Shown here one piece after another: positions 21,625 through 43,278 of a stretch of 64,000 bases of DNA; the first letter of the stretch is position 1; the number at the start of each line of letters is the position of its first letter. Location: NCBI RefSeq assembly GCF_009831455.1, contig NZ_WOWO01000001.1:1-64000 (forward strand), read 5' to 3'. The translations under genes were made by a program, and so were the position numbers. The stretch is from Salinirussus salinus. Lineage in GTDB: Archaea; Halobacteriota; Halobacteria; Halobacteriales; Haloarculaceae. Below the pieces are notes generated by a model. It did not search any database, was not told the origin of the DNA, and saw nothing but the letters and a program-made list of their open reading frames with translations.

Positions 21625-24078
21625 TCAGAGTTCCCGCAACCCTTCCTCGGCGAGTTCGGGCAGAACCCGATGTGCCGCCAGCGGCAGGTCGTGAAACCGG
21701 ACCCCAGTGGCGTCACAGACCGCGTTGGCCACGGCGGCGCTCGTCGGAACGAGCGGGCACTCGCCGACACCCTTCTGCCCGTGAGAGGTTGTCGGGTCGG
21801 GGTTTTCGAGTTCCTCGATGTTCGTGATCATGGGCACGTCGAGCGCCGACGGGAGGTGGTAGTTCGCCATCGAACCGTTCAACAGGGCCCCGTCCTCGTC
21901 GTAGGCGTACTCCTCGTACAGCGTCTCCCCGAGCCCCTGAGCGATGGCACCCTGGACCTGCCCCTCGATGAGCTTGGGGTTGATCGCGTTCCCGATGTCC
22001 TCGCAGATCGCCACGTCGACGACGTCGACGTCGCCGGTTCTGGGGTCGACGTCGACGAGGACGGCCAGCGCGCCGAACGTGTAGCTGTGAGCGACGTTTC
22101 CCCGGCCGGTGTCCGGGTCGACGAACTCGACCTCCTGGCTCTGGTACTTGCCGCGGCCGACAAGCGAGATGCCTCCCTGAAGTGGCTCCGGCCGCTCCTC
22201 TTCAGGGCCGAGCGTCTCCGGGTTGCCGAGCATGGCGACGTTCGCCAGCTCCTCGATGGGCATGCTCGTCTCCGGGTCGGTGGTGTCGACGGCCGCTCCC
22301 TCGCTGAGTTCGATGTCCCCTGGATCGGTCCCGAGCAGGTGCCCAGCCACCGCTTTCAGGGTCTCCGCGAGGTCTTCGGCGGCCCGGGCGGCGGCGCTCC
22401 CGCCGATGATCGTCCCGCGGTCGGCCCAAACGCCCAGGCCCTCTGGGGTGGCGTCGGTGTCGCCACGGACGGCGTCGACTCGCTCCAGGGGGACACCGAG
22501 CGTGTCGGCGACCAGTTGGTTGATCCCGGTCTCGGTGCCCTGGCCGATACTGGCGACGGCCGTCAGCACCGTCACGTCGCCATTCCGATTCATCTTCACC
22601 ACGGCCTCGTCGAAGTCGCCGCCGGAGGCGCTTTTGTTCCCGCCGCGTTTCATGATGGTTCCCATCCCGACGCCGCGGAGCTTGCCGTCCCGGGTCCGCG
22701 TCCCGCCGCGGTGCTCGTCCCAGTTGATCATCTCCCGGGTCCGCTCGAGACACGTGACCATGTCCGCGTTGCGCCAGATGTGGCCCGCCGCCGAGCGCAT
22801 CGGCATCTCCTCCTGTCGCGGGGTGTTCCGGAGCCGGAGTTCGACGGCGTCCATGCCGAGTTCCTCGGCGGCCATCTCGACCAGCTGCTCGCGCATGAAG
22901 GTTACCTGCGGGTCGCCGAAGCCACGCACCGCGGTCGTCGGCATCAGGTTCGTGTAGACGACCGTCGCGTCCCAGTTCTGGTTCGGGATTTTGTACGGCC
23001 CCTGTCCGCAGTTCGTCGAGGAGTACGCGACGGCGACGCCGTATGCGGCACACGCACCGGTGTCCTGGACGAGGTCGACGTCGATGCCGACGATGTCACC
23101 GTCCTCGGTGACGCCGAGCCGCCCCGACAGCTGTTCGGAGGCGCGGCCGCGGCCGGCCTGGAACTCCTCGCGGCGGTCGAGGACGTGTTTGACCGGCCGC
23201 TCGGTTGCCATCGAGAGCAGCGCCGCGCAGACCTCGAAGGGGTACGGGTCGAGCTTGATACCGAAGCCACCGCCGACGTCGGGGAGTCTGCAGACGATGT
23301 CGCCCTGGTCGAGCCCCTCGATCACCTGCGCGAGTTCGACCGAGAGGAGGTGGGGCATCTGCGTCGAGGAGGTGAGCTCGAGTTTCCCGCTGCCGGGGTT
23401 GTACTCGGCGATACAGCCGTGTGGCTCGAGCGGAGCGGGCGTCGTCCGGTTGGTCTCGAAACTCCCCTCGACGACGACGTCGGCGTCGGCCATCGGGTCC
23501 TCGTGGTCGCCGGCGACGACCCGGCCGGTCCAGGCCACGTTCCCGTCGGTGTCGGCCTCCGGGTCGGCGTTCAGGTCCGGGTGGACGACCGGCGCACCCT
23601 CCGCGAGAGCCTCGTCGACCGACGTGACCGCGTCCACGGGCGCGTACTCGACTTCGACCAGATCCGCGGCTTCGCGTGCCGTCTCCCGGGCGTCGGCGAG
23701 GACGACCGCCACTTCCTGGCCGGCGTAGACCACCCGCTCGTCGGCGAGCACCACCTCGTCGTCGAGCATGTAGCCGTACGGCTCGTCGACGTACTCCGCG
23801 ATGTCCGCGTGCGTCCAGACGAGTTCGACGCCGGGATGGGCCTCGGCGGCGGCCGTATCGATGTCGACGAGCCGGGCGCTCGCGTGCTCGCTGCGCACGA
23901 AGTACGCGTGGAGCATGTCCTGGGTTGCGATGTCGTCGACGTACTCCCCGTGGCCAGTGACAAAGCGCCTGCCGTCGTAGCTGTTGGCGCGCTCGCCGAC
24001 CCACTCCCCGTCGCGCTCCCCGGCCTCACGCTCCTCGGCGTCCGACACCCCGGCCGGGCGGGACTGCTGTTTGCTCAC
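21625..24078 (-). CDS. Xanthine-dehydrogenase-family molybdopterin-binding large subunit
   Basis: Molybdenum hydroxylase subunit that inserts a water-derived oxygen into a C-H bond of an N-heterocycle or aldehyde. 817 residues. Landmarks are an N-terminal ald_xan_dh domain (RFVTGHGEYVDDI, GVELVWTHADI), cofactor-binding DVGGGFGIK, TTAVRGFGDPQ, ASIGQGTETGINQ and the active-site glutamate in GQKGVGECPLVP. The active-site loop is AVRGFGDPQ, not the AYxCSFR of true CO dehydrogenase, so CO oxidation is unlikely. The start is a GTG. The small FAD and 2Fe-2S subunits are not adjacent but at 28743-30127 on the opposite strand. A perfect 14-bp palindrome lies in the promoter at 24145. Confidence 0.92.
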   Translation of the reverse strand: MSKQQSRPAGVSDAEEREAGERDGEWVGERANSYDGRRFVTGHGEYVDDIATQDMLHAYFVRSEHASARLVDIDTAAAEAHPGVELVWTHADIAEYVDEPYGYMLDDEVVLADERVVYAGQEVAVVLADARETAREAADLVEVEYAPVDAVTSVDEALAEGAPVVHPDLNADPEADTDGNVAWTGRVVAGDHEDPMADADVVVEGSFETNRTTPAPLEPHGCIAEYNPGSGKLELTSSTQMPHLLSVELAQVIEGLDQGDIVCRLPDVGGGFGIKLDPYPFEVCAALLSMATERPVKHVLDRREEFQAGRGRASEQLSGRLGVTEDGDIVGIDVDLVQDTGACAAYGVAVAYSSTNCGQGPYKIPNQNWDATVVYTNLMPTTAVRGFGDPQVTFMREQLVEMAAEELGMDAVELRLRNTPRQEEMPMRSAAGHIWRNADMVTCLERTREMINWDEHRGGTRTRDGKLRGVGMGTIMKRGGNKSASGGDFDEAVVKMNRNGDVTVLTAVASIGQGTETGINQLVADTLGVPLERVDAVRGDTDATPEGLGVWADRGTIIGGSAAARAAEDLAETLKAVAGHLLGTDPGDIELSEGAAVDTTDPETSMPIEELANVAMLGNPETLGPEEERPEPLQGGISLVGRGKYQSQEVEFVDPDTGRGNVAHSYTFGALAVLVDVDPRTGDVDVVDVAICEDIGNAINPKLIEGQVQGAIAQGLGETLYEEYAYDEDGALLNGSMANYHLPSALDVPMITNIEELENPDPTTSHGQKGVGECPLVPTSAAVANAVCDATGVRFHDLPLAAHRVLPELAEEGLREL

Positions 24079-27024: not shown

Positions 27025-28521
27025 TCAGCGCATCCCCTCGAGCGCCTTGCCCGCCTCGAGCACACGCCTGTCCGCGAAGTGCTCCCCGACGAACATCACA
27101 CCCACCGGCAGCCCGTCGCCCGGCTCGACTGGCACCGAAAGGGCGGGGTGGCCGGTGGCGTTGAACGGGCAGGTGTTGGCGAGACAGCCCCAGGCGTCGT
27201 CGAGGAAGGCGTGGATGTCCTGGTCCGGGACGTACTTGTTGGGGAGCTGTGGCGTCGTCGGCATGGCGAGCACGTCGACCTCCGCGAGCAGGTCGTCGTA
27301 CGCGGCCGTCAACTCCGTGCGGAGGTTCATCGCCCTGGCGTAGTACGCCGAGTGGTACTGGTCGGCGGTGTAGGCCCCGAGCAGGAGATTGTACTTGTAG
27401 CTGGGCGGGAAGTCACCGCCCTGTGCGCGCCGGAACTTCCCGAAGGTCTCGACCCAGTCGGTGTTGTACCAGCCCTGCCAGTTGTGGCCGACCCCCTCGC
27501 CGCGGAACGCCGCGACGGTCCCCTCCGCGAGCGCGACCGTGTAGATGTCGGCAGCGTCGTCGTGGAGCGGCAGCGAGACCGGCTCGACCGTCGCGCCGGC
27601 TGCCTCGAGGGCGTCCAGTCCCTCACGGACCCGCTCGTTGACGGGGGCCTCGGCCTCCGGACGGGTGAACCCCTCCTCCAGCACGCCGACGGTCAGGCCA
27701 TCGGCCTCGCCGTCCAGGCGGGTGTACTGTGATACGGGCACTTCGTCGGGCTGGCGGGGATCCCGGGGGTCCTTGCCGGCCATCACCGATAGCGCTCGGC
27801 CGGTCGTCTCGACGTCTCGAGTGAGAGGACCGACGTGGTCGATGGTGTTCTCGATGCCGGCGATCCCCGTGTACGGCACCAGCCCGTGGGTGGGTTTGTG
27901 TCCGACCACGCCACACCAGGCGGCCGGGACGCGGATGCTCCCGCCCTGGTCGGCGCCGACCCCGAGGTCCGCCTCCCCCTCGGCGACGGCGATGGCGCTG
28001 CCGCCGCTTGACCCGCCGGAGAGATACTCGGGGTCGTGCGGGTTCAGCGTCGGCCCGAACGCGCTGGAGTGGCCGTTGCCGGTGAAGGCCATGTCGTCCA
28101 TGTTGGTCTTGCCGACCACCCGACCGCCGGCCGCGAGCAGGCGCGTGACCACCGTCGCGTCGCTTGCAGGGACGTAGCCCTCCAGTACCTGCGACCCGCA
28201 GGTCATCTCGACGCCCGCGACGGCGACATTGTCCTTCACCGCGATGTCCCACCCCGCGAGCGGGCCAGTCTCCGCCGTCTGGACCTCACACCGCGTAACC
28301 CAGGCGTTGTACGGGTCCTCGTAGGCGACCCGGCGGCCGCCCGTGACTTCGCGGTCCGGCGATGGCCGGGGGCTCCCGGCGTGCTCGCGGACCGTCTGGT
28401 AGGCGCTCAGGCCGTCGGCGATGCGCTCGCGAAAGGCCGTGACCTCCGCGTCGGTGAGGTCGAGGTGAAGCTGTTCGCCCAGCTCCCTGACCTCGCGCTC
28501 TGTCGGCGCTCGGAGCTGCAT
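27025..28521 (-). CDS. Amidase-signature family amidase, copy 2
   Basis: Paralog of the amidase at 24257-25804, also on the minus strand, and convergent with the ureohydrolase, whose stop is 34 nt away. Catalytic regions are AVKDNVAVAGVEMTCGS, YLSGGSSGGSAIAVAEGEADLGVGADQGGS and SVPVEPGDGLPVGVMFVGEHF at the end. 498 residues from ATG 28521, normal for the family. Shared N-terminal pattern PTEREVRELGEQLHLDL with copy 1 indicates a duplication followed by divergence, so the two probably accept different amides. Confidence 0.9.
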   Translation of the reverse strand: MQLRAPTEREVRELGEQLHLDLTDAEVTAFRERIADGLSAYQTVREHAGSPRPSPDREVTGGRRVAYEDPYNAWVTRCEVQTAETGPLAGWDIAVKDNVAVAGVEMTCGSQVLEGYVPASDATVVTRLLAAGGRVVGKTNMDDMAFTGNGHSSAFGPTLNPHDPEYLSGGSSGGSAIAVAEGEADLGVGADQGGSIRVPAAWCGVVGHKPTHGLVPYTGIAGIENTIDHVGPLTRDVETTGRALSVMAGKDPRDPRQPDEVPVSQYTRLDGEADGLTVGVLEEGFTRPEAEAPVNERVREGLDALEAAGATVEPVSLPLHDDAADIYTVALAEGTVAAFRGEGVGHNWQGWYNTDWVETFGKFRRAQGGDFPPSYKYNLLLGAYTADQYHSAYYARAMNLRTELTAAYDDLLAEVDVLAMPTTPQLPNKYVPDQDIHAFLDDAWGCLANTCPFNATGHPALSVPVEPGDGLPVGVMFVGEHFADRRVLEAGKALEGMR

Positions 28522-28742
28522 GGGCTTTCTGTGTCCGTCGCCGGCATAGTGGTTGGGGTGGCTCCGCCGGCCACCCGGCTGTCCCCGCTACCCCCCGGCT
28601 CCGGCCTTCGCCAGACGCGTGTCCTGAGAGGGCTTGCTGGCAACGTTTGCATTCTCGGCAACGCTTACGCCGGAATCGGTCGGGACGAGCCAGTGCGGGA
28701 GGGTCAAATATAGGTACCCCCGGAACGAGAAACGGATGTCCG
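28522..28742. other. Divergent promoter region between amidase 2 and the molybdo-hydroxylase FAD gene
   Basis: About 220 nt with no gene. An AAATATAG element at 28705-28712 is a plausible TATA box for the rightward FAD-subunit gene, with a short leader. No strong palindrome was seen. Confidence 0.5.
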
Positions 28743-31397: not shown

Positions 31398-32558
31398 ATG
31401 GAGTCACGACGCTCGATACTCAGGAAAGCGGGAGCAGCAAGTGTAGCTATCACAGCCGGACTCGCAGGCTGTACCGGCGGTGACGATTCCGGCGATGGTG
31501 GGTCCACCGATGGCGGCGGCGGTGGCGGTGGTGGGTCCGGTGACGACACAGTCACCGCGGCCTACGTGTACAACGAGCCGATCTCGGACCTCGGCTGGGT
31601 CCACACCCACGAGGTCGTCCGGCAGTCGCTCGTCGACGAGCTGGACTGGTACGAGACCCAGGTCGTCGAGGACGTCGCGCCGTCGGAGGCGGAGTCGACC
31701 TTCGAAACACTCGCCGAGGAGGGTGTCGACGTGGTCGAGGCCGCGACGTTCGACTACGGAACCCCGGCGGCAGCGGTCGTCCAGGAGTACGACGACATCT
31801 ACATCGAGACGCCCCGGATGGTTCCCGTCGAGGGGTACGAGGGAGCGCAGCTCGGCTACTACCTCGGCCAGCTCGAGGACGCCTGCTACGCGACGGGTGT
31901 GGGTGCCGGAATGTTGACCGAATCGGACGTGCTCGGCTACGTGATGCCCTTCTCGATCGCGAGTACGGTCACGGAGCTCAACGCGCTCATGCAGGGGGTC
32001 AGAAGCGTCAACGAGGACGCGACGATCATCGTCCGGTTTACCGACACCTGGTACGACCCGGCCGCCGAGCGACAGGCCGCAGAGGCGCTGGTCGACGAGG
32101 GCGCCGACGTGCTCGGGTACCGGGTGAGTACTCCGACGACGATGGAGGTCGCTGCGGAAAACGACGTCTGGAGTTACGGCTACGCCGACTCCTTCGTCGA
32201 CACCGACATCGCCTACGACAAGTACATCACGAGCAGGATGTGGGATTGGACGCCGTTCTACCGGCAGACAGCCGAGGCCGCCCGCGAGGGGTCCGCGGGC
32301 GACCTCGACCGGTTCAACGTCGAGGGCTTCCGGGGCAACTACTTCGGCTTCGCCGAGGGCGGTGTCACCCTGGACGACTACGGCTCGGGGGTCCCCTCGG
32401 ACGTGGCGGACGCGATGGACGAGGCGGTCAGCCAGCTCGAGAACAACGACCTGACCGGGTCGGACATTTTCGAGGGGACCCAGTACAGCGACATGTCGGC
32501 CTACGAGCGCGTCTCGACGGCGTCGGAGTACGTCGACGGGATCCAGGCGAACAACTGA
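31398..32558 (+). CDS. BMP-family ABC transporter substrate-binding lipoprotein, TAT-exported
   Basis: Extracellular capture protein of the BMP/PnrA class, usually for nucleosides, purines or autoinducer-like compounds. Twin-arginine-type signal (SRRSILRKAG), hydrophobic core, lipobox LAGC and a Gly/Asp-rich tether precede the mature domain beginning TVTAAYVYNEPISDLGW. Later BMP features include FETLAEEGVDVVEA and YGYADSFVDTDIAYDKYI. 386 residues. No transporter gene is adjacent; the matching permeases (41154-43278) and two-domain ATPase (47864-49501) lie 9 and 16 kb away, so this looks like a scattered single system. Confidence 0.9.
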   Translation: MESRRSILRKAGAASVAITAGLAGCTGGDDSGDGGSTDGGGGGGGGSGDDTVTAAYVYNEPISDLGWVHTHEVVRQSLVDELDWYETQVVEDVAPSEAESTFETLAEEGVDVVEAATFDYGTPAAAVVQEYDDIYIETPRMVPVEGYEGAQLGYYLGQLEDACYATGVGAGMLTESDVLGYVMPFSIASTVTELNALMQGVRSVNEDATIIVRFTDTWYDPAAERQAAEALVDEGADVLGYRVSTPTTMEVAAENDVWSYGYADSFVDTDIAYDKYITSRMWDWTPFYRQTAEAAREGSAGDLDRFNVEGFRGNYFGFAEGGVTLDDYGSGVPSDVADAMDEAVSQLENNDLTGSDIFEGTQYSDMSAYERVSTASEYVDGIQANN

Positions 32559-32678
32559 GGCGACCGGCGCGGTCGACTCACCTGTTTGCGGTCCGAACGC
32601 CCACGAGCGGCCGGTCCGTATCGCGCGTCCACCGCGCCCGGCGGCAGGTTTATGCCCGGAAGCGGCAAACTGGGGGCG

Positions 32679-34106
32679 ATGCCAGAGCTCCTCATCGAGG
32701 GCGGCACAGTGGTAACGCAAAACGCCGACCGGGAGGTCATTCGCGACGGCGCCGTGGCCATCGAGGGCGACCGGATCATCGCCGTCGGGACGACCGCCGA
32801 CCTGAACGACCGGTACGACCCCGACCGGCGGCTCGACGCCTCGGGCACGGCCGTCATCCCGGGGCTGGTGAACCCTCACACCCACGTCTCGGACATCCTG
32901 CTCCGGGGCAGCTGTGGCACCGACCGGGGGCTGTACGACTGGCTGTTCAACGTCAAACAGCCCGGGATCGCACGGATGACCGCCGAGGAGCACGAACTCG
33001 CCGCGGCGCTGTACTGCGCGGAGGCGCTCTCGGCCGGCGTCACCACCTTCGTCGAGAACGACGCCGAAATGCTGCTCGGCGAGACCGACGCGATGACCGC
33101 GAAGTTCGATGCCTACGAAGCGGCCGGGCTCCGGAGCATCTACGCCCGTGGGATCCGTGACCTGCCGGTGGACGACGACTTCCAGGGGCTAGTCGACCGC
33201 GTCGCCGGGCGCGACCCCTCGGTCGAACACCCCGACCAGGAGCGGTACGTCGAACCGCTCGAGGACTGGCTCGAGGAGCTCGCACGGCTGCACGACGACT
33301 ACCACGGAAGCGCCGACGGCCGCCACGAAATCTGGGTCGCGCCGGTCGTCATCGAGGGGATGACCGACGAGGGGCTCCGGGAGGCCTACCGCTTTGCCGC
33401 CGCCCGCGACGTGATGACCACTATCCACACCGCGGAGGCTCCCGGACAGGCCGAGGGGTGGCTGTCGCCGGTCGAACACCTGCGGAACGTCGGTTCGCTG
33501 GGCGAACACGCCCTCCTCGCTCACTGTGTCCACATCGACGAGCGGGATGTCCGCCTGCTCGGGGAGACTGACACCCGGGTGGCACACAACATCGCCTCGA
33601 ACATGGCGCTTGGCAACGGCTTCGCCCCGGTGGGGGCGATGCGCAGCCACGGTGTCACCGTCGGGCTCGGGACGGACAACGCCATCCTCAGCGACACTGT
33701 CAACCCGCTGGCCGACCTCCGGCTGGCTGCGATGGCTCACAAGGGCCACCACACCGACCCCGGCGTCCTCCCGGCGGAGGCGGCCCTCGATATGGTCACC
33801 ATCGAGGCCGCCCGGTCGATGCGGAAAGGCGAGGAACTCGGCTCGCTGGAGGCCGGCAAGCGGGCCGACGTGGTCGTGCTCGACCTCGACCTGCCACACC
33901 TCACCCCCGTCCCGGATGCCGTCAACGCGGTCGTCTACCAGACGCTGGGTTCGGAGGTCGAAACGGTCCTCTGTGACGGGGAGGTCGTCGTCGAGGGCGG
34001 GGTCCCCACCGGCGTCACAGAGGCCTATCCCGACCTCCACGCACGGGCGACGGCGGCCGCGGAGCGCATCGTGGAGGCCTCGGGGATCGCCGAAGGCGAA
34101 CGCTGA
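32679..34106 (+). CDS. Amidohydrolase, guanine-deaminase/chlorohydrolase/SsnA-like
   Basis: Zinc-dependent hydrolase that deaminates or dechlorinates a ring, as in guanine, cytosine, methylthioadenosine or triazine deaminases. Metal ligands are HTH in PHTHVSD, H in TIHTAEAPGQ, H in LLAHCVHIDE and D in GLGTDNAIL. Starts with the typical beta-sandwich MPELLIEGGTVVTQNADREV. ATG 32679 is 29 nt downstream of GGTTTATG, giving a leaderless message; 32652 is an alternative start. 475 residues. Convergent with hyuB. A natural early step in breakdown of an amino-substituted heterocycle (inference). Confidence 0.88.
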   Translation: MPELLIEGGTVVTQNADREVIRDGAVAIEGDRIIAVGTTADLNDRYDPDRRLDASGTAVIPGLVNPHTHVSDILLRGSCGTDRGLYDWLFNVKQPGIARMTAEEHELAAALYCAEALSAGVTTFVENDAEMLLGETDAMTAKFDAYEAAGLRSIYARGIRDLPVDDDFQGLVDRVAGRDPSVEHPDQERYVEPLEDWLEELARLHDDYHGSADGRHEIWVAPVVIEGMTDEGLREAYRFAAARDVMTTIHTAEAPGQAEGWLSPVEHLRNVGSLGEHALLAHCVHIDERDVRLLGETDTRVAHNIASNMALGNGFAPVGAMRSHGVTVGLGTDNAILSDTVNPLADLRLAAMAHKGHHTDPGVLPAEAALDMVTIEAARSMRKGEELGSLEAGKRADVVVLDLDLPHLTPVPDAVNAVVYQTLGSEVETVLCDGEVVVEGGVPTGVTEAYPDLHARATAAAERIVEASGIAEGER

Positions 34107-34119: not shown

Positions 34120-36309
34120 CTACAGCGAGAGCCGGCTGACCAGCGCCGGGTCCTCCCGCTTTGCCACCTCGGTGTCGAGCAGCGTCCCACACTCCGGGCA
34201 GAGGAACTTCCGGAGGCAGTACTCCGCGGAACCGCCGGTCGCCGTGCCCGCCGCCGAGAGCGACTCCTCGGCGACGGCCACCTCGCCCTTCCAGTGGTCG
34301 TCCGCGCGACCGACGGGGATACCACAGCCCTCACACGCGGCGTAGGGGACGTCCTCGCCGTCGACCTCGACGGCTACGTTCGCGCCCAGCCGGTAGGGGG
34401 TGGACTCGGTGTCCTCGGGAGCAGCAGCGGCGGCGTCCGCCTCCGCCGGCAGGTCCGCCGCCTCGAGGCGCTCGCGGTAGCGGTCCTCGCGGGCCTGCTG
34501 GGCCGACCCGGTGATGGTGCCCTCGTCGTCGACGGGAACGCAGTAGACCTCCCGGGCCGTCTCCGGGGCGACCTTCCCTTCTGCGACGTCCTCGGCGACC
34601 GACTCGGGCTCCCGGTCCAGCGGGTCGCCGTACCCGCCGCTGCCGGGCAGCCGGACGTGGAACGCGTCGTCGTCCCCGAGGGTGTCGACCCCCCAGCGGA
34701 CGTGTTCGGGCTCCGGCAGTGACTCCTCGGTCGGCGGGAAGGGGCCGTCCCCGGAGAGGTCGGCGTCCCGGTAGGTGGCGTAGTCGACGTTCGCACCCGG
34801 GTAGCCGCCGAAGACTCCCGTCGAGTGGGGGAGGTCGATCCCCCGTCCCATGGTCACGACGTCGAGCTTCTCGAAGTCCTCCTCGGCAGCGGGTGTGACG
34901 GCGAACTCGTGGCCGAGCCCGCCGCGGTGTTCGCCGGCACCGCCGGAGTCCGCGACGAACCGGCGGTAGAGGTACAGCAGCGGGAGCACCGCCTCGTGGC
35001 GCTCGGCGTTGCCCCACCGCGCGACGATGTTGACCACCTCGCCGCCGAGGTCGACGCCGTCGTCGAAGGCCCGCGCGCCGCCGGCGCCGGCGAAGGTGTC
35101 GGTCAGCGCCTCGACCTGCGTGCCGTCCCCGTGGTCGATCTCCAAGGCGATGTGACAGTGGGCGCCGTGCCAGACGCCGGTCGCGCGGTCGGCGTAGGCC
35201 TCGCTGGCGCCGAGTAACTTCGAGACCGCGAGCGTCGACAGCGAGTTACACATCTGGAGTGTTCCGATCGTCGCGATGGAGATCGGTGCCGGTCGCTCGG
35301 CGTTGACGATCGTCCCCTTCGGGGCGTCCACGTCGATGGCACGGAAGATCCCGTCGTTCCAGGTCATGTCGTGACAGAGCAGCGGCAACAGGGGCGCGAT
35401 GACGCCACCAACCGTCCCGATCTCCGTGCAGTTGAACCCCACCTCGCTCTGTTCGTCGGTGCCGGCGAAATCGAACCGCAGCGAGTCGCCCTCCTTCTCG
35501 AGGGCGAGCTGGACGGTAAACGAACGGTCCTCGCTGGCCGAATCGAGGTACTGGCGTTCCTCCCACCGGCCGTCCGGGAGTTCCCGCAGCCGCTTGCGGA
35601 GTTTCTTCTCGGACTGCTCGATGAGCTGTTCGCCGACGTACTCGACGGTCTCCGGGGAGTACTCGTCCATCAGCCCCTGGAGGCGGTCCTTGGCGACGTT
35701 GTTGGCGGCGATCTCCGAGCGGAGGTCGAGTTCGACCATCCCCGGGTCACGGCTCATGTTCAGGATCGTCTCCAGAACGTCGTCGCGCATCTCTCCACCT
35801 TCGATCAGCTTCATCCCCGGCGTCTGGAACCCCTCGTGGAAGATGGTCGTCGCGTTCGGCGAGAACCCTCCAGGGTCGACGGCGCCGATGTCGGCCACGT
35901 GGACGAAACTCGCCGAGAACGCCTGGAGTTCGCCCTCGTAGAAGATCGGACAGATGATGTAGACGTCCGGCGGGTGTAGCGCCGCCGTGTACGGGTCGTT
36001 GAGGATGAACATGTCGCCCTCCTCGATGTCGCCCTCGAAGCGGTCGATGATGTGTTTGGTCGCCTCCGAGGCACCCAGGTAGTGGTGCAGAAATCCCACC
36101 CCGCCGGTCAGCAGCGAGCCGTCTTTGGTGTACAGCGCGACCATCAGGTCGTGGCCCTCGTTGGTGTTCGGGGCGCCGGAGACGCGCTTGAGCGCCTCGA
36201 CGGCCTCGTCGGTGACCCGCACCAGCCGGTGTTTGATGATCTGGAAGGTGACCGGGTCCAGCCCCTCCACGCTCAGGTCGATGTCGTCGGTCGGTTCAGT
36301 GTCACTCAT
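34120..36309 (-). CDS. Hydantoinase B/acetone-carboxylase-alpha-like subunit with C-terminal zinc-ribbon extension
   Basis: One half of an ATP-dependent HyuAB-type complex (hydantoinase, oxoprolinase, caprolactamase, acetone or acetophenone carboxylase). 729 residues, longer than a standalone HyuB. The core is typical (DPVTFQIIKHRLVRVTDEA, IEEGDMFILNDPY, FVHVADIG, GGLGHEF). The last 100 residues add a domain with two CxxC pairs (CEGCG and CPECG) separated by a conserved WKGEV segment, resembling the acetone carboxylase gamma subunit. This raises the chance that the complex is a carboxylase rather than a hydantoinase. Its ATG overlaps the hyuA-like stop by eight bases. Confidence 0.85.
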   Translation of the reverse strand: MSDTEPTDDIDLSVEGLDPVTFQIIKHRLVRVTDEAVEALKRVSGAPNTNEGHDLMVALYTKDGSLLTGGVGFLHHYLGASEATKHIIDRFEGDIEEGDMFILNDPYTAALHPPDVYIICPIFYEGELQAFSASFVHVADIGAVDPGGFSPNATTIFHEGFQTPGMKLIEGGEMRDDVLETILNMSRDPGMVELDLRSEIAANNVAKDRLQGLMDEYSPETVEYVGEQLIEQSEKKLRKRLRELPDGRWEERQYLDSASEDRSFTVQLALEKEGDSLRFDFAGTDEQSEVGFNCTEIGTVGGVIAPLLPLLCHDMTWNDGIFRAIDVDAPKGTIVNAERPAPISIATIGTLQMCNSLSTLAVSKLLGASEAYADRATGVWHGAHCHIALEIDHGDGTQVEALTDTFAGAGGARAFDDGVDLGGEVVNIVARWGNAERHEAVLPLLYLYRRFVADSGGAGEHRGGLGHEFAVTPAAEEDFEKLDVVTMGRGIDLPHSTGVFGGYPGANVDYATYRDADLSGDGPFPPTEESLPEPEHVRWGVDTLGDDDAFHVRLPGSGGYGDPLDREPESVAEDVAEGKVAPETAREVYCVPVDDEGTITGSAQQAREDRYRERLEAADLPAEADAAAAAPEDTESTPYRLGANVAVEVDGEDVPYAACEGCGIPVGRADDHWKGEVAVAEESLSAAGTATGGSAEYCLRKFLCPECGTLLDTEVAKREDPALVSRLSL

Positions 36310-38413
36310 CGTTGCCCTCCTCGATACCGATCCGGATGTTCTTGTACCGGTCCATCCGCGCCACGTCGCCGGGGTTGACGACGATGGTCGTCACCGGCGT
36401 GAGGATGACCCCTGGCTCCGTTATCTCGTCGCCGGGCGTCAGCTCCTCGAAATCGTACAGGCTCGCATCGACCCGCCCGCCCGCCGCCTCGAAGTGCATC
36501 TCCTTGCTCCCCAGGCGGGCGCGGGTCGGGTTCGACTCGCTGACCGGGTGTTCCTTCAGGTCAGGCGTCGTCAGCGGCCCGACGCCGCGGACGCGGAATT
36601 CGGTCATCTCGATGCCGCCCTCCTTGAACGCCGACCCCTCGCCGTACCGCTGCTCGTACAGCTCCTCGAACCGGTCGACCGTCGCGTCGATGTCGGCCTG
36701 CGTGAGCTGGCCCGCCGCCTCGACGGGCGTCAGGAGTTCGTGGACCTGGCGCTGGTAGCGCATGCTGATAGAGCGCTCCAGGCGGATCTCCTCCGCGTCG
36801 AACCCCTCGGATGCGAGCTTCTCCCGCGCCGTCGCCGAGAGGTCGCCGAACACCTCGTTGACCTCGTCGACGCCGAAGGGCGGTTCCATCCCCTTGACGT
36901 CCAGGTGCTCGTGGGTCACGTCCGTCGAGAGCAGGCCAAGCGCGCTGTTGACCGACGCCGTGTGGGGCACCAGTACCTCCGGAATATCCAGCTCGCGGGC
37001 GTAGGAGGCCGCGTGCATCCCCGCGGCACCGCCGATGGCGACCAGCGTGAACTTCCGGGGGTCGATGCCCTTCTCGACGGTGGTCTCACGCAGCAGGTCC
37101 GCGATGATCGAGTTGATCAGCTTGTAGATGTCCGCAGCAGCTTCCTCGGTGGACTTGCCCAGCGGGCCTGCGACCTGCTCGTCGAAGACCTCGTACGCCC
37201 GGTCGGCGTCCATCTCCTTGCCCCCGCCCAGGAAGTACTCCGGCGCGAAATACCCCTGGACGAGGTCCACGTCGGTTACCGTCGGCCGGTCGCCCCCCCG
37301 GCCGTAACAGGCCGGCCCGGGGTCCGAGCCGGCACTCTCCGGGCCGACCTGCGGGACGTTCGTCCCCTCCTCCAGCGAGATGATGCTCCCGCCCGCGACG
37401 GCGATGGAGTGGATGTCCCGTTTCGGGAACTGGTAGTGGTGGCGGCCCACCATCGGCTCGTCGGCGTACTCGATCCGGTTGTCATCGATGACGCCGACCT
37501 TGAACGTCGTCCCGCCCATGTCCGTCGAGATGATGTTGTCGACCCCGCGCCTGTTGGCGACGAACTGGCTGCCCAGCAGGCCGCCGACGGGTCCCGACTC
37601 CATCAGCCCGACCGGTCGCTCGATGGCGTCCTGTCGAGTCACGAGCCCGCCGTGAGAGAACATCAACAGCAGGAGCCCGTCGAAGCCGTACTCCGTGAGC
37701 GTCGTCTGCAGGTTCGTGAGATACTCCTCCGCCGTCGGCCCCAGATAGGCGTTGAGCACTGTCGTCGACGTGCGCTCGTACTCGCCCATCGTCGGCGAGA
37801 CGTCGCTTGACACCGAGACGTACAGGTCGGGATAGTGCTCGGCGAGCAGGTCTTTCACCCGCCGTTCGTGTGCCGGCGAGCGAAACGACCAGAGCAGACA
37901 CGTCGCGACGGACTCGACTCCGTCCTCGACGAGTCCGTCGACGGCCTCCAGCACCTCCTGGTCGTCGAGTTCCTCGACGACCTGGTCGCGGTAGGCCCGC
38001 TCGGAGAGCCCCTCGACCCGCGTGCGCGGGATCAGCGGGTCCGGCTTGTCCGAGTTGATGATGTCTTTGACCTGCTCGAACGGGAGCCCGGACCACCGGC
38101 CGTACCCCCCGCGGGTAGCGTGCAGCGTCTCCTCGAAGCCCGCGGTCGTCAGCAACCCGGTTTCGGCTCCCTCGCGCTCGAACAGGGCGTTCTCCCCGAC
38201 AGACGTCGCGTGGAGAAACAGGTCGGTGTCCCCGAGCAGTTCCTCGAGACCGACCTCCATGTTCCCGGTGGCGTCGGACAGGGAGTCGAAGATGCCCTGC
38301 GAGAAGTCGGGGTAGGTCGTCAGGTCCTTCCCGATGGTTACACGGCCCGATTCGTCCATGACTGTCGAATCTGTACACGTGCCGCCGATATCGGTCCCGA
38401 TTCGGTAGCCCAT
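36302..38413 (-). CDS. Hydantoinase A/acetone-carboxylase-beta-like subunit
   Basis: ATP-binding half of the HyuAB-type complex, of the actin/hexokinase fold. 703 residues from ATG 38413 (MGYRIGTDIGGTCTDS). Nucleotide-binding motifs are DIGGTCTD, LMESGPVGG, STDMGGTTFKVG and AIGGAAGMHA, with the family PGPACYGRGGDRPT segment. The frame continues upstream but this ATG gives the canonical start. It is co-transcribed with the hyuB-like gene. Known relatives open hydantoins or lactams, or phosphorylate ketones for carboxylation; which applies here cannot be decided from sequence. Confidence 0.88.
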   Translation of the reverse strand: MGYRIGTDIGGTCTDSTVMDESGRVTIGKDLTTYPDFSQGIFDSLSDATGNMEVGLEELLGDTDLFLHATSVGENALFEREGAETGLLTTAGFEETLHATRGGYGRWSGLPFEQVKDIINSDKPDPLIPRTRVEGLSERAYRDQVVEELDDQEVLEAVDGLVEDGVESVATCLLWSFRSPAHERRVKDLLAEHYPDLYVSVSSDVSPTMGEYERTSTTVLNAYLGPTAEEYLTNLQTTLTEYGFDGLLLLMFSHGGLVTRQDAIERPVGLMESGPVGGLLGSQFVANRRGVDNIISTDMGGTTFKVGVIDDNRIEYADEPMVGRHHYQFPKRDIHSIAVAGGSIISLEEGTNVPQVGPESAGSDPGPACYGRGGDRPTVTDVDLVQGYFAPEYFLGGGKEMDADRAYEVFDEQVAGPLGKSTEEAAADIYKLINSIIADLLRETTVEKGIDPRKFTLVAIGGAAGMHAASYARELDIPEVLVPHTASVNSALGLLSTDVTHEHLDVKGMEPPFGVDEVNEVFGDLSATAREKLASEGFDAEEIRLERSISMRYQRQVHELLTPVEAAGQLTQADIDATVDRFEELYEQRYGEGSAFKEGGIEMTEFRVRGVGPLTTPDLKEHPVSESNPTRARLGSKEMHFEAAGGRVDASLYDFEELTPGDEITEPGVILTPVTTIVVNPGDVARMDRYKNIRIGIEEGNDE

Positions 38414-38570: not shown

Positions 38571-39044
38571 TTACAGCGGCTGTTCGGGGCCGGTCGGCGT
38601 CCGGAACCACCGGGACAGCGCGGCCGTGTCGTCGACCGTCGTCAGCGCTGCCAGCGTCGGGAGCCCGAGCACCGAGACGCCCTTCTCCGAAGCGATCTGG
38701 AATGCCTCCGTGTCTCCGGTCCCGACCGTCCCTACCTGGACCGTCGTGTACTCGTTGGCGACCGTGAACCCCTCGGCCGGTTCGACCGGCCGCCCGCGAT
38801 AGGAGCTGGCTTCGTCGGCCAGCACTGGGCCGGGTTCCTCGACGAACTCGGCGAGGTCGCTGGCGTCCTCCTGCCAGGAAACTCCCTCCAGCAACATGGC
38901 GTCGAGCCGGAGCTGGTCCTCACCGTGTTCGAGCAAGAGCAACTCCCCCATCGAGACGAGCTTCGTCGCGATTACCGTCCGGCTGCCGTCCCCGAGTGCT
39001 ATCGCGTGAACCCGGGCGGACCCGGGCGTGTGTCTCGGCGGCAT
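38571..39044 (-). CDS. Uncharacterised third protein of Rieske oxygenase operon 2
   Basis: 157 residues, paralog of the protein at 18947-19444. Shared landmarks are the KLVSMGE region, LDAMLLEG followed by a WQ pair, VLGLPTL near the end and the terminal WFRTPTGPE. It starts 2 nt after the beta-subunit stop, exactly as in operon 1. No signal peptide, membrane helix, cysteine cluster or known domain. The retention of position, spacing and motifs in both operons argues that it acts with the oxygenase. Function unknown. Confidence 0.8.
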   Translation of the reverse strand: MPPRHTPGSARVHAIALGDGSRTVIATKLVSMGELLLLEHGEDQLRLDAMLLEGVSWQEDASDLAEFVEEPGPVLADEASSYRGRPVEPAEGFTVANEYTTVQVGTVGTGDTEAFQIASEKGVSVLGLPTLAALTTVDDTAALSRWFRTPTGPEQPL

Positions 39045-39046
39045 GG

Positions 39047-39586
39047 TCAGAGTAACACGATGGTGAGATTCTTCAGGTCGATCACGCTGTCGTCGAAGTA
39101 CACCACGCGGTCGGCGATCTTGAGGTCGTCGCCGACCCGTCTGAGGGTGGTCTCCCGCTGTGCGGAGAGCGTCTCGCTATCGGTGGCGTCGCCGTAACTC
39201 CGGTAGACCTGCTGGTTGTTGAGGACGGTGTACTCCTCGCCCTCGACCTCCGTCACGCGGACGTTACCGATGACGTGACGCACACGCGAGCGCGGGTTCT
39301 CCGCCCAGGCGTACTCCTTGCCAAGCCGGGTCACCCGCTCTCTCAGGATGTCGTACTCGTTGTAGAGGTAGTAGCCGTCCTCGCTGAACTCCGGCTGGTC
39401 GGTCCCCGGGTGTGTGTGTCGCCGGATCGGCGCAGTGATCCTGATGTCCTCGGTGAGCAACTCCAGCCACTCCTCCAGCCGGAAGCTGTCAAGCAACTCC
39501 GCTTCGGTGTAGAGTAGCTGTTCGACCTCGTGTTGGAGGGCTGGCGAAACCGTCGTCTCGGTGTCGACGGGTTCGCTCTCACTCAT
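39047..39586 (-). CDS. Aromatic-ring-hydroxylating dioxygenase beta subunit 2 (SnoaL/NTF2-like)
   Basis: Structural partner of alpha subunit 2. Has the same family pattern as beta subunit 1: LQHEVEQLLYTEAELLDSF, EEWLELLTEDIRI, an identical EYAWAENPRSRVRHV block and a C-terminal KIADRVVYFDDSVI strand. 179 residues from ATG 39586, which overlaps the alpha stop by eight bases; a further start at 39601 is less likely. Strong similarity to the gene at 19447-19980 shows that the whole three-gene operon was duplicated. Confidence 0.9.
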   Translation of the reverse strand: MSESEPVDTETTVSPALQHEVEQLLYTEAELLDSFRLEEWLELLTEDIRITAPIRRHTHPGTDQPEFSEDGYYLYNEYDILRERVTRLGKEYAWAENPRSRVRHVIGNVRVTEVEGEEYTVLNNQQVYRSYGDATDSETLSAQRETTLRRVGDDLKIADRVVYFDDSVIDLKNLTIVLL

Positions 39587-40964
39587 CGGTTTCGCTCCCA
39601 TCCAGCTCGGGCCGCCCCATGGACATGTACCTGTGCCAGTGTTTCAGGTGGTTTCGGGCGCCGGCTTCGCTGTAGTAGCCGCCGAAGCGCTGGACCTCTG
39701 CCGGCCCGAACAGCGGGTCATCAACCGTCTCGAGGTCGTCGCTCATCCCCTTCAGGCCCTGCTCCATGTTGCCGACCGTCTCGTTGAGTTCCAGGGTGAC
39801 CGAGTCGGTGGAGTCTGCGATCCCGGCCCAGACCGACAGGTCGTCGGCCTCGAACGTCCCGCCAGGACTCGTCGTCTCGAATCCGTGGTAGGCTCGCTCC
39901 ATGAACTCCTCGTCGTCGGCCAGCTCCTTGGGGACGAGCCACCAGCTCATGATCTCCGTCTCGCTCGGGCCGCGGGGGACGAACGTCCGGATCTGGACCC
40001 AGGGACCGCCCCAGCCGCCGCCCGAGATGGCGTGGTTGATGTTGGTGTTGGGGTACAGCGTCGAGAAGAAGTAGACCGACTGGCTGAACAGCTCGCGCTG
40101 TTTGCCGGTCAGGTCGGAGTTGTAGTGGTCGGTGACCTCGTCGGGATATCCCATGTGGGTGTCCGTGTCGTAGTTGACCAGAAAGCTCAGCGAGGCGTTT
40201 TCGGTCACGGCGAGGTGATTGTAGTCGCCTTTCCGCTCCTGTGCCGAGGGGAGGGTCTCCCAGGGACCGGCTTCCCCCAGGTCTTCGGACTCGAAGACCG
40301 CCTGGTGGGTCGCGAGGACGTGGTAGTTGTCGCCGCCGAAGTTCTGTGCGGGGGTCTTCCAGTTGTGGGGCGCGACCGAGCGGTGCGGGTCGGCCACGAC
40401 CGTCATCCCCTCCTCGGTGAGGTCGACGAGCAGGTCGAGATACCAGGTGAAGTCCCCGAGATACTCCTCCAGGGAGGGGCCCTCGTCGACCAGCCGGCCG
40501 AAGATGAGTCCGTTGTAGCGTTCGACGGTCGCCTTCTCGAGTCTGATCTCGTCGGGGTCCAGGTCCTGGTATGACTCCTCCTTGTAGGGCATCCCCTGGA
40601 GCTCGCCGTCGTTCCGGTAGGTCCAGCCGTGGTAGGGGCACCGGAAGTGGGTGGTGTTTCCCTTGTCAGCGGTGCAGAACTGGGCGCCCCGGTGTTTGCA
40701 GGCGTCGAGCAGCGCGTGGTACTCCCCGTCACGGTCGTAGGTCAGGATGTACGGGTCACCCGCGATGTACCGGCGGGCGTAGTCCCCCGGCTCCTGGAAT
40801 TCGGAGGTGTGGCCGATGTAGTTCCACGTGCGACTGAACAACCGCCGCAGCTCCTCCTCGTAGATGGCGTCGTCGCTGTATATCTGGAACGGGAATTTCC
40901 CCTTTCCGATCTTTTCGCCGGTTTGCTCGATTAACTGTTCGGTTTTATCCGCCGACTGGGCCAT
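39579..40964 (-). CDS. Rieske aromatic-ring-hydroxylating oxygenase alpha subunit 2
   Basis: Catalytic subunit of a second Rieske oxygenase. Rieske ligands are C89, H91, C109 and H112; iron ligands H215 and H220 follow N208 and D212 in NFGGDNYHVLATH. These positions are numerically identical to alpha subunit 1, so the two align without gaps through the catalytic core. 461 residues from ATG 40964, 28 nt downstream of a CATATATG box. Its catalytic machinery is intact. The divergence between the two copies suggests two substrates or two successive steps. No dedicated reductase is adjacent. Confidence 0.93.
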   Translation of the reverse strand: MAQSADKTEQLIEQTGEKIGKGKFPFQIYSDDAIYEEELRRLFSRTWNYIGHTSEFQEPGDYARRYIAGDPYILTYDRDGEYHALLDACKHRGAQFCTADKGNTTHFRCPYHGWTYRNDGELQGMPYKEESYQDLDPDEIRLEKATVERYNGLIFGRLVDEGPSLEEYLGDFTWYLDLLVDLTEEGMTVVADPHRSVAPHNWKTPAQNFGGDNYHVLATHQAVFESEDLGEAGPWETLPSAQERKGDYNHLAVTENASLSFLVNYDTDTHMGYPDEVTDHYNSDLTGKQRELFSQSVYFFSTLYPNTNINHAISGGGWGGPWVQIRTFVPRGPSETEIMSWWLVPKELADDEEFMERAYHGFETTSPGGTFEADDLSVWAGIADSTDSVTLELNETVGNMEQGLKGMSDDLETVDDPLFGPAEVQRFGGYYSEAGARNHLKHWHRYMSMGRPELDGSETDE

Positions 40965-40996: not shown

Positions 40997-41121
40997 TTTC
41001 CTGGCGCGGTCACCCCGGCCGAGCAGCCGGGTGGGACACGAGGCTCCGCTTGATACGATGTTGTAGATCGTGAAGCGATCTGGGTGAACAGTGGACGGAA
41101 AATACTGGTCGGGCGGCAAGA

Positions 41122-41129
41122 CTTTTAAT
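41122..41129 (+). promoter_or_regulatory. TATA box of the BMP-type permease operon
   Basis: CTTTTAAT lies about 28 nt upstream of ATG 41154. This picks that ATG over the in-frame GTG at 41091, which lies upstream of the promoter. Confidence 0.55.
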
Positions 41130-41153
41130 CCCTGTACAGAAAGTTGGCCATCA

Positions 41154-42287
41154 ATGGCAAACGTCAGCGTCGAATTGACGCCACGGACACGGACACCACG
41201 GTGGTTCGGGATGGCGGTACAGGGGTTGACGGTGGTTGCCGCACTGGCTGTCGCTGCTCTCGCACTCGTGGCCGTCGACGCGAATCCCGTCACGGTGTAT
41301 TCCGAGATGTTTCTGGGTGCGTTCAGCGACCCGTTACAGGCAAGCCGGGTTTTCAACAGGAGCGCACCGCTGATCCTCGCCGGACTTGCGGTGTATATTC
41401 CGCTCAGAAGCGGGCTCTACAATATCGGCGCCGAGGGGCAACTCATCGTCGGCGGACTCGTGACGGTGTGGGTCGGTACCCGCCTGCCCGAGGCGATGGG
41501 CGTCGGGGCCGAGGGGGCGGTCGTGTTCCTGGCCGCACTGGGGGTCGCGGTGCTGGCCGGGGTTGCCTGGGTGTACGTCCCCGTCTACCTGTACAACAAG
41601 TACGAGGTCAACGAGATACTGACGACACTCATGCTCGTGTTCACCGCTGAGCGGGTGAGCGCGTACCTGATCTCCGGCCCGCTCCAGGCGGGCGGGGGCG
41701 GGTTCCCGAGAACCGGGTCGATAGCCTTCGACCTGCCGACCCTCTTTGGCACCCGGATCGACGTGGGGATCGTGTTCGCGCTGCTCGCAGTCGCGGGGAC
41801 GTGGCTGGTGATCAACCGGACCCGCCTGGGCTACGAGGTCGTCCTCTCGGGGTCCAACGAAGGAGTCGCCGAACAGACCGGGATCGGGACGAAGAAGATC
41901 ACCTTCTTCGTGTTCACCTTCGCCGCAGCACTCGCCGGCCTCGCCGGGTTTATCGAGGTGGCCGGCAACCAGTCGAGCCTGACCATCGGCTGGCAGCCCG
42001 GCTACGGCTGGACGGCGATCCCGATAGCGCTGCTCGGTCGGCGGGGAGCGGTCCAGACAATGCTCGCCGGGTTCATGTTCGGATTCATCTTCGTGGGGGC
42101 GTCGACGGTCGAGACGACGCTGGGCGTCCCCGCGGCGATCTCACAGATGATCGAGGCGTTGATCATCCTCTTTCTGATCAGCGGTGAGGTGCTCAAGACC
42201 CACCGGCTCGACCTCGTGCTCGGCAGGTGGTCGCTGCGGGAGTCGGTCGGGAAACTGGCGCGGGTCGGGAGAGCCGGGGGGAACTGA
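41154..42287 (+). CDS. BMP/nucleoside-type ABC transporter permease 1
   Basis: Integral membrane permease of the BPD_transp_2 class found with BMP-type binding proteins. 377 residues with about eight to ten transmembrane segments. Family landmarks are RSGLYNIGAEGQLIVGG near the front, EVNEILTTLMLVF in the ATPase-contact region and GYGWTAIPIALLGR toward the end. First gene of a two-gene operon; the second permease starts 1 nt after this stop. Ends with a basic cytoplasmic tail. The partner binding protein and ATPase are elsewhere in the island. Confidence 0.9.
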   Translation: MANVSVELTPRTRTPRWFGMAVQGLTVVAALAVAALALVAVDANPVTVYSEMFLGAFSDPLQASRVFNRSAPLILAGLAVYIPLRSGLYNIGAEGQLIVGGLVTVWVGTRLPEAMGVGAEGAVVFLAALGVAVLAGVAWVYVPVYLYNKYEVNEILTTLMLVFTAERVSAYLISGPLQAGGGGFPRTGSIAFDLPTLFGTRIDVGIVFALLAVAGTWLVINRTRLGYEVVLSGSNEGVAEQTGIGTKKITFFVFTFAAALAGLAGFIEVAGNQSSLTIGWQPGYGWTAIPIALLGRRGAVQTMLAGFMFGFIFVGASTVETTLGVPAAISQMIEALIILFLISGEVLKTHRLDLVLGRWSLRESVGKLARVGRAGGN

Positions 42288-42288
42288 C

Positions 42289-43278
42289 ATGGGGGACGTC
42301 GTCCTCGTCGCCGGCCTCACCGAGTCGTTCGTCACGGGTCTCATCGGCGCGACAGTCACCGCCTCGACGCCGCTCATCCTGGCTGCACTCGGCGAGGTCG
42401 TCGCCGAGCGGGCGGGAATGTTGAACCTGGGGGTCGAGGGGATCATGCTACTCAGCGCGCTCTTCTCGTTCATGGTTGCGCTGACCACCGGCAGCCTGTT
42501 TCTGGGCTTTCTGACCGGCGTTGTCGTCGGGGTCGTCGCCGGCCTGTTGCACGCCTTCCTGACGGTCTCGCTGAAAGCGGACCAGGTGATAAGCGGCATC
42601 ATGATCACACTGCTCGGGGCCGCGGTGACGGCCTTCGTCGGCGACGACTGGGCGAGCCGGAGCATCGACGGCCTCGAGAAGACGTACTTCCCGGTCATCG
42701 GTGAACCGCTCTCGGCTATCCCGCTGGTCGGAGAAGCGTTGTTTTACTCGACGCCGACGGCCTTCCTCGCAGTCCTGCTCGTCCCCGTGGTGTGGTACGG
42801 CCTCTTCCGGACGAACCTCGGCCAGGAGATCATCGCGGTCGGCGAGGACCCCGAGGCCGCCGACACCGTCGGCGTCCCGGTGTTCCGGATCCGGTATGGC
42901 GTGACGGTCTTCGGGAGCGCGATGGCCGGACTGGCCGGCGCCCACCTCATCCTCGCGTGGATCAACCAGTGGTCCACGGGGATGACTTCGGGGCTGGGCT
43001 GGGTGGCCATCGCGCTGGTGATCGTCAGCCGCTGGCGCCCCTTCTACGCGCTCGGGGTGGCGTTCATCTTCTCCTCGCTCAACGCCTTACAGATCCGAGT
43101 CCAGGGGCTGGAGCTCGGCGACGGGCTGGTCGGGGGGCTGTTGCTCGACCCGGCTTTCATCTCCATCTACCCCTACGTCGCGACGATCGTCGTCCTGGCG
43201 TGGGTTTCGCGCAACGAGCTGGATGAACGGCTCGGGAGACCGGAAGCGCTTGCCAGCCCGTACACCCGGGAGGAGTGA
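42289..43278 (+). CDS. BMP/nucleoside-type ABC transporter permease 2
   Basis: Second permease of the pair, 329 residues. Typical segments are STPLILAALGEVVAERAGMLNLGVEGIML, KADQVISGIMITLLGAA and the long conserved LGWVAIALVIVSRWRP region near the end. ATG 42289 begins just after the permease-1 stop; the open frame continuing back to 42184 lies inside permease 1. Heterodimerises with permease 1 to form the pore. Confidence 0.9.
   Translation: MGDVVLVAGLTESFVTGLIGATVTASTPLILAALGEVVAERAGMLNLGVEGIMLLSALFSFMVALTTGSLFLGFLTGVVVGVVAGLLHAFLTVSLKADQVISGIMITLLGAAVTAFVGDDWASRSIDGLEKTYFPVIGEPLSAIPLVGEALFYSTPTAFLAVLLVPVVWYGLFRTNLGQEIIAVGEDPEAADTVGVPVFRIRYGVTVFGSAMAGLAGAHLILAWINQWSTGMTSGLGWVAIALVIVSRWRPFYALGVAFIFSSLNALQIRVQGLELGDGLVGGLLLDPAFISIYPYVATIVVLAWVSRNELDERLGRPEALASPYTREE

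Follow-up and report, generated by a model that had tools for sequence, protein, structure and literature searches.

A HyuB-like protein of Salinirussus salinus with a fused domain of the acetone carboxylase gamma type

What is a domain resembling the small gamma subunit of acetone carboxylases doing at the end of a HyuB-like protein, and does it make the enzyme a ketone carboxylase rather than an ATP-dependent hydrolase of lactams or hydantoins? The question is raised by two adjoining genes of Salinirussus salinus, for a HyuA-like ATP-binding subunit and a HyuB-like subunit, in a stretch of 64,000 nt (NZ_WOWO01000001.1, positions 1–64,000; here called the window, within which its gene coordinates are given). 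An earlier note on this DNA had pointed to the gamma-like tail of HyuB and had read the pair as a two-gene version of a three-subunit carboxylase, so that the pathway would change from ring opening to ketone carboxylation. Sequence and predicted fold place the tail in the family of gamma subunits found in acetone (Acx) and acetophenone (Apc) carboxylases, and it is predicted to bind zinc. The activity of the enzyme is a separate matter, and is taken up after the tail and its origin.

At 20 haloarchaeal loci, gamma-less HyuB proteins are mostly about 540–610 aa long (a few open reading frames (ORFs) are longer, their mechanically assigned start lying too far upstream). Against these, the 729-aa HyuB of the window has a C-terminal extension of about 120–190 residues (the earlier note had estimated about 100–150), and it ends in a four-cysteine domain of about 90 aa. 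Key residues of this domain are Cys659, Cys662, Cys704 and Cys707, the pair Trp673-Lys674, and Arg700; the arm and linker before it (residues 564–639) vary in length among nine aligned tails. HyuA contains all three Hydantoinase_A domains (Pfam). Its longest reading frame opens at 38503, upstream of the ATG chosen at 38413, and hyuA and hyuB, both on the (-) strand, share 8 overlapping bases (Table 1).

How secure is the assignment of the tail? The Pfam model PF08882 (Acetone_carb_G) has a cut-off of 21 bits, which the isolated tail just passes (its final 129 aa score 21.8 bits, its final 90 aa 23.2 bits). Inside full-length HyuB the score is 17.8 bits, under the cut-off, and the same model found nothing when run over the genome to which the window belongs; a standard annotation run therefore misses the domain. 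The fused copy in another genome, G265, scores 42.3 bits, and the model is matched by all 13 of the fused tails and separate short gammas. Six fused tails and seven separate short gamma ORFs, aligned together (alignment A1), share six invariant columns (four Cys, one Lys and one Arg), and the A1 profile retrieves the gamma chains of Apc (5l9w_C, 9.6e-13) and Acx (5m45_C, 4.6e-9), well above zinc fingers. An AlphaFold2 model of the tail, with a predicted local distance difference test score (pLDDT) of 81.5, has Acx and Apc gammas as its Foldseek matches of ranks 1–5, with Z 6.4–6.8 over 81–83 residues, against 4.4 for the next unrelated chain (5svb_F: Z 6.8, root-mean-square deviation (rmsd) 2.7, 81 aligned; 5l9w_C: Z 6.7, rmsd 2.6, 81 aligned). 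AlphaFold2 applied to the whole 729-aa protein with 4 input sequences reached a mean pLDDT of only 34.9. Thus domain search, profile and predicted fold all confirm the resemblance to acetone carboxylase gamma that the earlier note had pointed out. The Mis18/Yippee and cereblon (thalidomide-binding) domains match the tail model weakly (Z 3.5–4.4); the cereblon-type fold binds cyclic imides elsewhere, and a hint of cyclic-imide binding was entertained and dropped, the matches being too weak.

All four zinc-type cysteines, the Trp-Lys pair, the arginine and a DTE motif are kept in all nine fused copies that were found, one of which shows C-x-C in place of C-x-x-C, like Acx gamma. The 'WKGEV' segment that the earlier note had taken to be conserved is so only in its W-K (9/9), the G-E-V being variable. 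Compared with the window protein, eight copies show 42–67% identity in the gamma domain and 64–88% in the HyuB body.

The nine HyuB-gamma loci come from six genomes, all haloarchaeal: besides Salinirussus, full-length fused relatives occur in Halorubrum kocurii, Natrarchaeobius chitinivorans (three copies in the genome), Salinigranum salinum (two), G265 and a plasmid of Halorientalis marina. Among 392 genomes of the order, 45 have a gamma-like A1 match, and the fused form, judged by open-frame length and sequence, is found only in G000, G265 and G377; in the window's own genome the fused domain is the sole gamma-like match. Named bacterial records were covered via plasmids only (the one tail match being that of Halorientalis), and a pattern scan of genome contigs, sensitive to close relatives only, gave three loci. 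The best unfused HyuB relatives (G043, G265:C3, G250, G254, G238 and G270; 30–38% identity) all have a PF08882 ORF of about 95 aa directly downstream of hyuB, and in named examples such a separate short gamma is annotated 'acetone carboxylase subunit gamma'. With a separate gamma gene immediately after hyuB in the nearest unfused relatives, the arrangement is therefore best explained by gene fusion. On gene order and sequence, hyuA plus hyuB-gamma represents a three-gene hyuA-hyuB-gamma system reduced to two genes, much as the earlier note had surmised. It seems almost certain that hyuB and the gamma gene were fused once, inside the haloarchaea, a single event being the simplest history because the nine fused HyuBs make one clade even without the tail columns. 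We found no report of a HyuB-gamma fusion in the open-access literature searched (titles, and abstracts in part); gamma, HyuA and HyuB themselves are known families, and the fused arrangement appears to be a new variant of them.

Orphan HyuB-gamma genes without an adjacent hyuA, and one orphan hyuA, were also seen (L152, 8551–10737; L153, 6649–8811; L181, the L035 copy; L118, 9923–12037). Fused-type HyuA and HyuB-gamma stand at 2:3 in Natrarchaeobius and 1:2 in Salinigranum, and several HyuB-gammas could be served by one ATPase. At a decayed locus, L075 (G214:C7, 6869–7866), all that is left of hyuB are short ORFs of 149 and 80 aa, and no hyuA was seen; the short gamma ORF is intact and adjoins a Rieske dioxygenase alpha–beta pair.

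Where does the fused lineage stand in relation to the carboxylases and hydrolases? The HyuB tree (64 rows) was based on the body only, with all columns after the GGYGDP motif removed, and the HyuA tree had 63 rows, four Apc alpha' subunits being left out. References were Acx, Apc, CapAB and N-methylhydantoinase, with no oxoprolinase among them, and the labels ACX, APC, HYU and short-gamma were assigned here from the order of the genes, their lengths and whether a gamma ORF accompanies them. The broken L075 HyuB was left out of the trees and L075 was kept in the context counts described below. In the HyuB tree the nine fused proteins form one clade (100/100) and group with the short-gamma proteins (94/84), and Acx and Apc group together (100/98). 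A 100/100 branch parts 36 gamma-bearing rows (9 fused, 7 short-gamma, 11 Acx-type, 7 Apc-type, AcxA and ApcD) from 28 others (20 haloarchaeal and 5 bacterial gamma-less, L076, CapB and N-methylhydantoinase); a partial gamma-like ORF lies on the opposite strand, about 4 kb upstream, in L076 (G193), which is labelled UNK and sits on the gamma-less side. In the HyuA tree, Acx and Apc fall together with their references (100/99), as do the gamma-less proteins with CapA and N-methylhydantoinase (100/99), and the fused HyuA clade (100/100) lies between these groups, weakly adjoining the gamma-less one (75/79). Approximately unbiased (AU) tests reject neither side for HyuA (52-row tree; p 0.382 with the carboxylases, 0.464 with the hydrolases), nor do they reject a placement of the fused HyuB lineage with the hydrolases (p 0.445, from a previous alignment in which one reference had two errors).

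In both trees the window subunits fall neither in the ACX clade nor in ACX plus APC, and they also lie outside the hydrolase clade (100/99 for HyuA, 100/100 for HyuB). The earlier note had recognized that a firm grouping of HyuA with true hydantoinases would tell against its idea; no such grouping with CapA and N-methylhydantoinase was found (100/99). As far as these sequences can tell, the fused lineage belongs neither with the Acx/Apc ketone carboxylases nor in the clade of gamma-less hydrolases. NCBIfam equivalog scores are likewise all far below their cut-offs (CapA 497/1000, CapB 226/1000, ApcC 362/1500, ApcD 191/1500). At L077–L079, a second HyuB-like gene lies a few kb from haloarchaeal acetone-carboxylase-like operons and groups with the first; these three second copies were kept out of the 64-row HyuB trees and included in a 56-row tree.

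The Asp-His-Asp-His metal tetrad is retained in all nine HyuB-gamma copies, its first position being aspartate (Asp54) in each, versus glutamate in all 12 Acx-type rows. The HyuA phosphate motifs are DIGGTCTD (P1) and DMGGTTFK (P2), and both of their aspartates, together with a PGP adenosine motif, are retained in all seven fused-lineage HyuAs. At the position of CapA Asp302, where CapA, AcxB and ApcC have Asp, all seven have Lys; the caprolactamase study pairs Asp302 with Lys281 of the Apc alpha' subunit (PMC8453981). This lysine, which ends DMGGTTFK, was considered as a sign of carboxylation and dropped, because it is shared by the gamma-less L102 (of the window's own genome), L187 and L188 (bacterial) and by L076, and because the haloarchaeal Apc alpha' rows have Asp (4/4). 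In the bacterial Acx-type HyuBs L182, L186 and L191, the position of the CapB His99 ligand is Gln in two of the three, possibly through misalignment.

Gene context was surveyed as homologues within 8 kb of hyuB. An amidase or an ATZ/TRZ-type amidohydrolase is present at 8/9 fused loci (amidase 6/9, ATZ/TRZ 5/9), 0/10 short-gamma loci and 0/20 gamma-less haloarchaeal loci, and an AMP ligase, enoyl-CoA hydratase (ECH), acyl-CoA dehydrogenase (ACAD) or thiolase at 1/9, 6/10 and 1/20, respectively. Among bacterial loci, picked from match lists, four of five gamma-less ones have an amidase, M20 aminoacylase or carbamoylsarcosine amidohydrolase, compared with none of the five annotated gamma-bearing ones (one further gamma-bearing locus lacks annotation). 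The proposed switch to ketone carboxylation is therefore not borne out: HyuA falls outside the Acx/Apc clade (100/99), the AU tests are undecided as to side, and eight of the nine fused loci, that of the window included, have amide or N-heterocycle genes and not the ketone/CoA genes of their unfused relatives. A role in the catabolism of amides or N-heterocycles appears fairly probable, and hydrolytic ring opening instead of carboxylation about an even prospect.

How might such an enzyme work? In accounts of related enzymes, the HyuA-like subunit is thought to phosphorylate the substrate, the intermediate then tunnelling to the HyuB-like metal site, and in Apc the C-terminal arm of the HyuB-like subunit wraps around gamma, whose zinc is probably structural (PMC5214803, PMC8453981, PMC5543143, PMC12250083); ATP-dependent hydrolysis of valerolactam is described for OplA/OplB (PMC11033972). 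We suggest that HyuA (ASKHA fold) would use ATP to phosphorylate the enol or iminol form of the substrate carbonyl, that the activated intermediate would pass along a HyuA–HyuB tunnel to the Asp-His-Asp-His site, where water may open the lactam or imide ring of an N-heterocycle, and that the neighbouring amidases and amidohydrolase would then release nitrogen. Gamma would act as a zinc-stapled structural clamp on the C-terminal arm of HyuB, as in Apc, with the fusion fixing a 1:1 stoichiometry; since the Apc arm embraces gamma, the arm would be a natural point of fusion. We give roughly even credence to this picture, in which an ATP-dependent enzyme opens rings in the catabolism of N-heterocycles or amides and keeps gamma as a clamp.

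Several considerations weigh against it. To our knowledge, every characterised gamma-bearing enzyme is a ketone carboxylase. According to the account of Weidenweber et al. (PMC5214803), gamma is absent from any hydantoinase (Hyd) complex, and the 100/100 branch of the HyuB tree places the fused proteins with the gamma-bearing ones. The fused locus of Halorientalis has short-chain dehydrogenases/reductases (SDRs), enoyl-CoA hydratases, MaoC proteins and an AMP-binding ligase, but it lacks an amidase. Moreover, the context queries were drawn from the window and from L036, L071–L073 and L159, so that the counts, with queries partly from the window and the fused loci related to one another, describe a pattern and not independent events, and the P values computed from them exaggerate that independence. 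The main rival is accordingly a carboxylase that uses ATP and bicarbonate to act on a ketone or another enolisable compound, a compacted version of the three-subunit enzymes recruited into a degradative pathway for a nitrogenous compound, whose ketone intermediate would come from an SDR, a dioxygenase or a molybdenum hydroxylase; it owes this rank to the fact that the characterised gamma enzymes carboxylate, and that the short-gamma sisters and Halorientalis have ketone/CoA contexts. Six of the ten short-gamma loci are of the CoA type counted above, two more have acetoin-type dehydrogenase E1/E3 genes, and annotations of acetoacetate decarboxylase and butanediol dehydrogenase lie near such sisters; at the Halorientalis locus the AMP-binding, ECH and MaoC genes accompany the order SDR-hyuA-hyuB-gamma, and in Halorubrum, too, an SDR lies beside hyuA-hyuB. 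We nevertheless regard this rival as tentative and on the whole doubtful: at eight of nine fused loci the neighbours are amidases or amidohydrolases with no CoA genes among those searched, the Acx traits are absent (Asp for the metal Glu; PGP, not V-G, in the adenosine motif), and the Apc alpha' subunit is missing.

The two activities could also be combined, in a biotin-independent, ATP- and bicarbonate-dependent carboxylase acting on an N-heterocycle, lactam or amide at O, N or the alpha carbon, the product then being cut by the neighbouring amidases. Urea carboxylase and allophanate hydrolase follow a similar logic of carboxylation before hydrolysis, with biotin. Some footing for such a scheme comes from caprolactamase, for which bicarbonate dependence and a proposed carboxylation mechanism (C) are described (PMC8453981). 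Although we think it unlikely, it would, if true, bridge the two halves of the family, hydrolases and carboxylases, and explain a gamma in an amide pathway. That gamma might be a functionless relic on an ordinary lactam or hydantoin hydrolase of carboxylase ancestry would fit its lower conservation relative to the HyuB body in each of the eight copies; this is made still less likely by the retention of the four cysteines, W-K, Arg and DTE in all nine copies from six genomes. Hardly credible, finally, is a convergent resemblance of an unrelated zinc ribbon to gamma: the PF08882 score is marginal and some zinc-ribbon families match weakly, but the best matches of the A1 profile and of the structural model are the Apc and Acx gammas, and unfused relatives have a gamma ORF in the same place. 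The earlier note had itself raised an unrelated zinc ribbon as a possible objection, and sequence and predicted fold already refute it.

With its gamma domain and its neighbours for the breakdown of nitrogen compounds, the fused enzyme may blur the boundary between hydrolases and ketone carboxylases. The fused and short-gamma lineage provides a two-gene enzyme in which the step that separates hydrolysis from carboxylation, and the part played by gamma, can be probed. There is also a practical point: concealed behind 'hydantoinase B' annotations in haloarchaea is a gamma domain that may escape a standard Pfam scan.

The wider neighbourhood in the window (Table 1) includes, by our count, two Rieske dioxygenases, and homologues of both ABC permeases lie beside hyuB-gamma in G265. 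We draw attention to two similar small proteins, at 38571–39044 (-) (157 aa) and 18947–19444 (-) (165 aa), each encoded directly after a Rieske alpha–beta pair; the latter has no Pfam match, and the likeness was judged by eye. Glycine cleavage genes adjoin the cluster (49539–52761 (-)): gcvPB is above its NCBIfam cut-off, and its two neighbours read on inspection as gcvPA- and gcvH-like. The pathway may yield glycine. Two specific pathways were considered and discarded, one for vitamin B6 (matches to B6-transporter and pyridoxal-dehydrogenase profiles were all far below cut-off) and a Rut-like pyrimidine pathway at a Salinigranum locus (the LLM protein and hydrolase there match no Rut model at 1e-20).

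Table 1. Features of the hyuA-hyuB-gamma locus and its surroundings in the window
Feature	Coordinates	Strand	Details and basis
HyuB-gamma fusion protein, 729 aa	34123..36309	(-)	Stop codon 34120-34122; ORF reading and Pfam
Hydantoinase_B domain of HyuB			Residues 18-563; E 2.8e-118; Pfam
C-terminal arm and linker, HyuB core to gamma	34393..34620	(-)	Residues 564-639; alignment of nine tails
Fused gamma domain, Acetone_carb_G-like (predicted)	34123..34392	(-)	Residues 640-729; sequence, fold, conservation
HyuB metal-site tetrad Asp54, His112, Asp115, His137	35899..36150	(-)	Equivalent to CapB Asp41, His99, Asp102, His124; residue roles after PMC8453981
HyuA-like ATP-binding subunit, 703 aa	36305..38413	(-)	ATG at 38413; ORF 36302-38413; ORF reading and Pfam
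HyuA Lys ending second phosphate motif DMGGTTFK	37499..37501	(-)	Motif alignment
XdhC-type factor	17094-18239	(-)
Molybdenum hydroxylase large subunit	21625..24078	(-)
Second amidase-signature protein	24257-25822
Amidase-signature protein	27025..28521	(-)	Above NCBIfam PRK07235 cut-off
Molybdenum hydroxylase medium subunit	28647-29609	(+)
BMP-family substrate-binding lipoprotein, nucleoside-type ABC importer	31398..32558	(+)
ATZ/TRZ-type amidohydrolase	32586..34106	(+)	Likely ATG 32679; adjoins hyuB 3' end
Small protein, 157 aa, between dioxygenase beta gene and hyuA	38571..39044	(-)	No NCBIfam match
Rieske ring-hydroxylating dioxygenase	39047..40964	(-)	Beta 39047-39601, alpha 39579-40964; upstream of hyuA, same strand
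Two ABC permeases of importer	41091..43278	(+)	Importer ATPase at 47684-49501

How, then, does the pair compare with known systems? With Acx (Xanthobacter autotrophicus AcxABC, PDB 5m45/5svb/5svc) it shares a HyuA-like ATPase, a HyuB-like metal subunit and a four-Cys zinc-type gamma; in Acx, however, gamma is a separate protein of 168 aa, a metal-site Glu (AcxA Glu89) stands where the window has Asp54, the adenosine motif has V where the window HyuA has P, and both trees place Acx in a separate clade. Apc (Aromatoleum aromaticum ApcABCDE, PDB 5l9w) has the same Asp-His-Asp-His site and a gamma with C-x-x-C pairs (a chain of 129 aa) held by the C-terminal arm of its HyuB-like subunit, but differs in its second ATPase alpha' and epsilon subunits, its gene order apcABCD(E) and its separate clade; reading of the ORFs in the 64-kb window gave only one HyuA, and so no alpha'. 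The caprolactamase CapAB (Pseudomonas jessenii, PDB 6yra) and the ATP-dependent lactam and hydantoin hydrolases have two genes, the same metal tetrad and the same phosphate motifs, and CapA and CapB give the best NCBIfam scores of the pair, yet far below their 1000-bit cut-offs; these enzymes are without gamma, and the window subunits fall outside the clade of CapAB and N-methylhydantoinase. Closest are the haloarchaeal three-gene loci (for instance on plasmids of Natronosalvus halobius, Haloterrigena alkaliphila and Haladaptatus pallidirubidus), which have a short gamma and provide the nearest HyuB clade (94/84), but in which gamma is a separate gene and the context is of the ketone/CoA kind. 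Rules for telling hydantoinases from ketone carboxylases have been framed in terms of gene number, the presence of gamma and subunit length (PMC5214803). For Hyd they expect two genes, hydAB, and no gamma, whereas here there are two genes with gamma fused to one of them. By the criteria given in that account the fused system is none of Acx, Apc and Hyd, and its lineage breaks the published rules, being like Hyd in having two genes, like Acx and Apc in having gamma, and outside both in its place in the trees.

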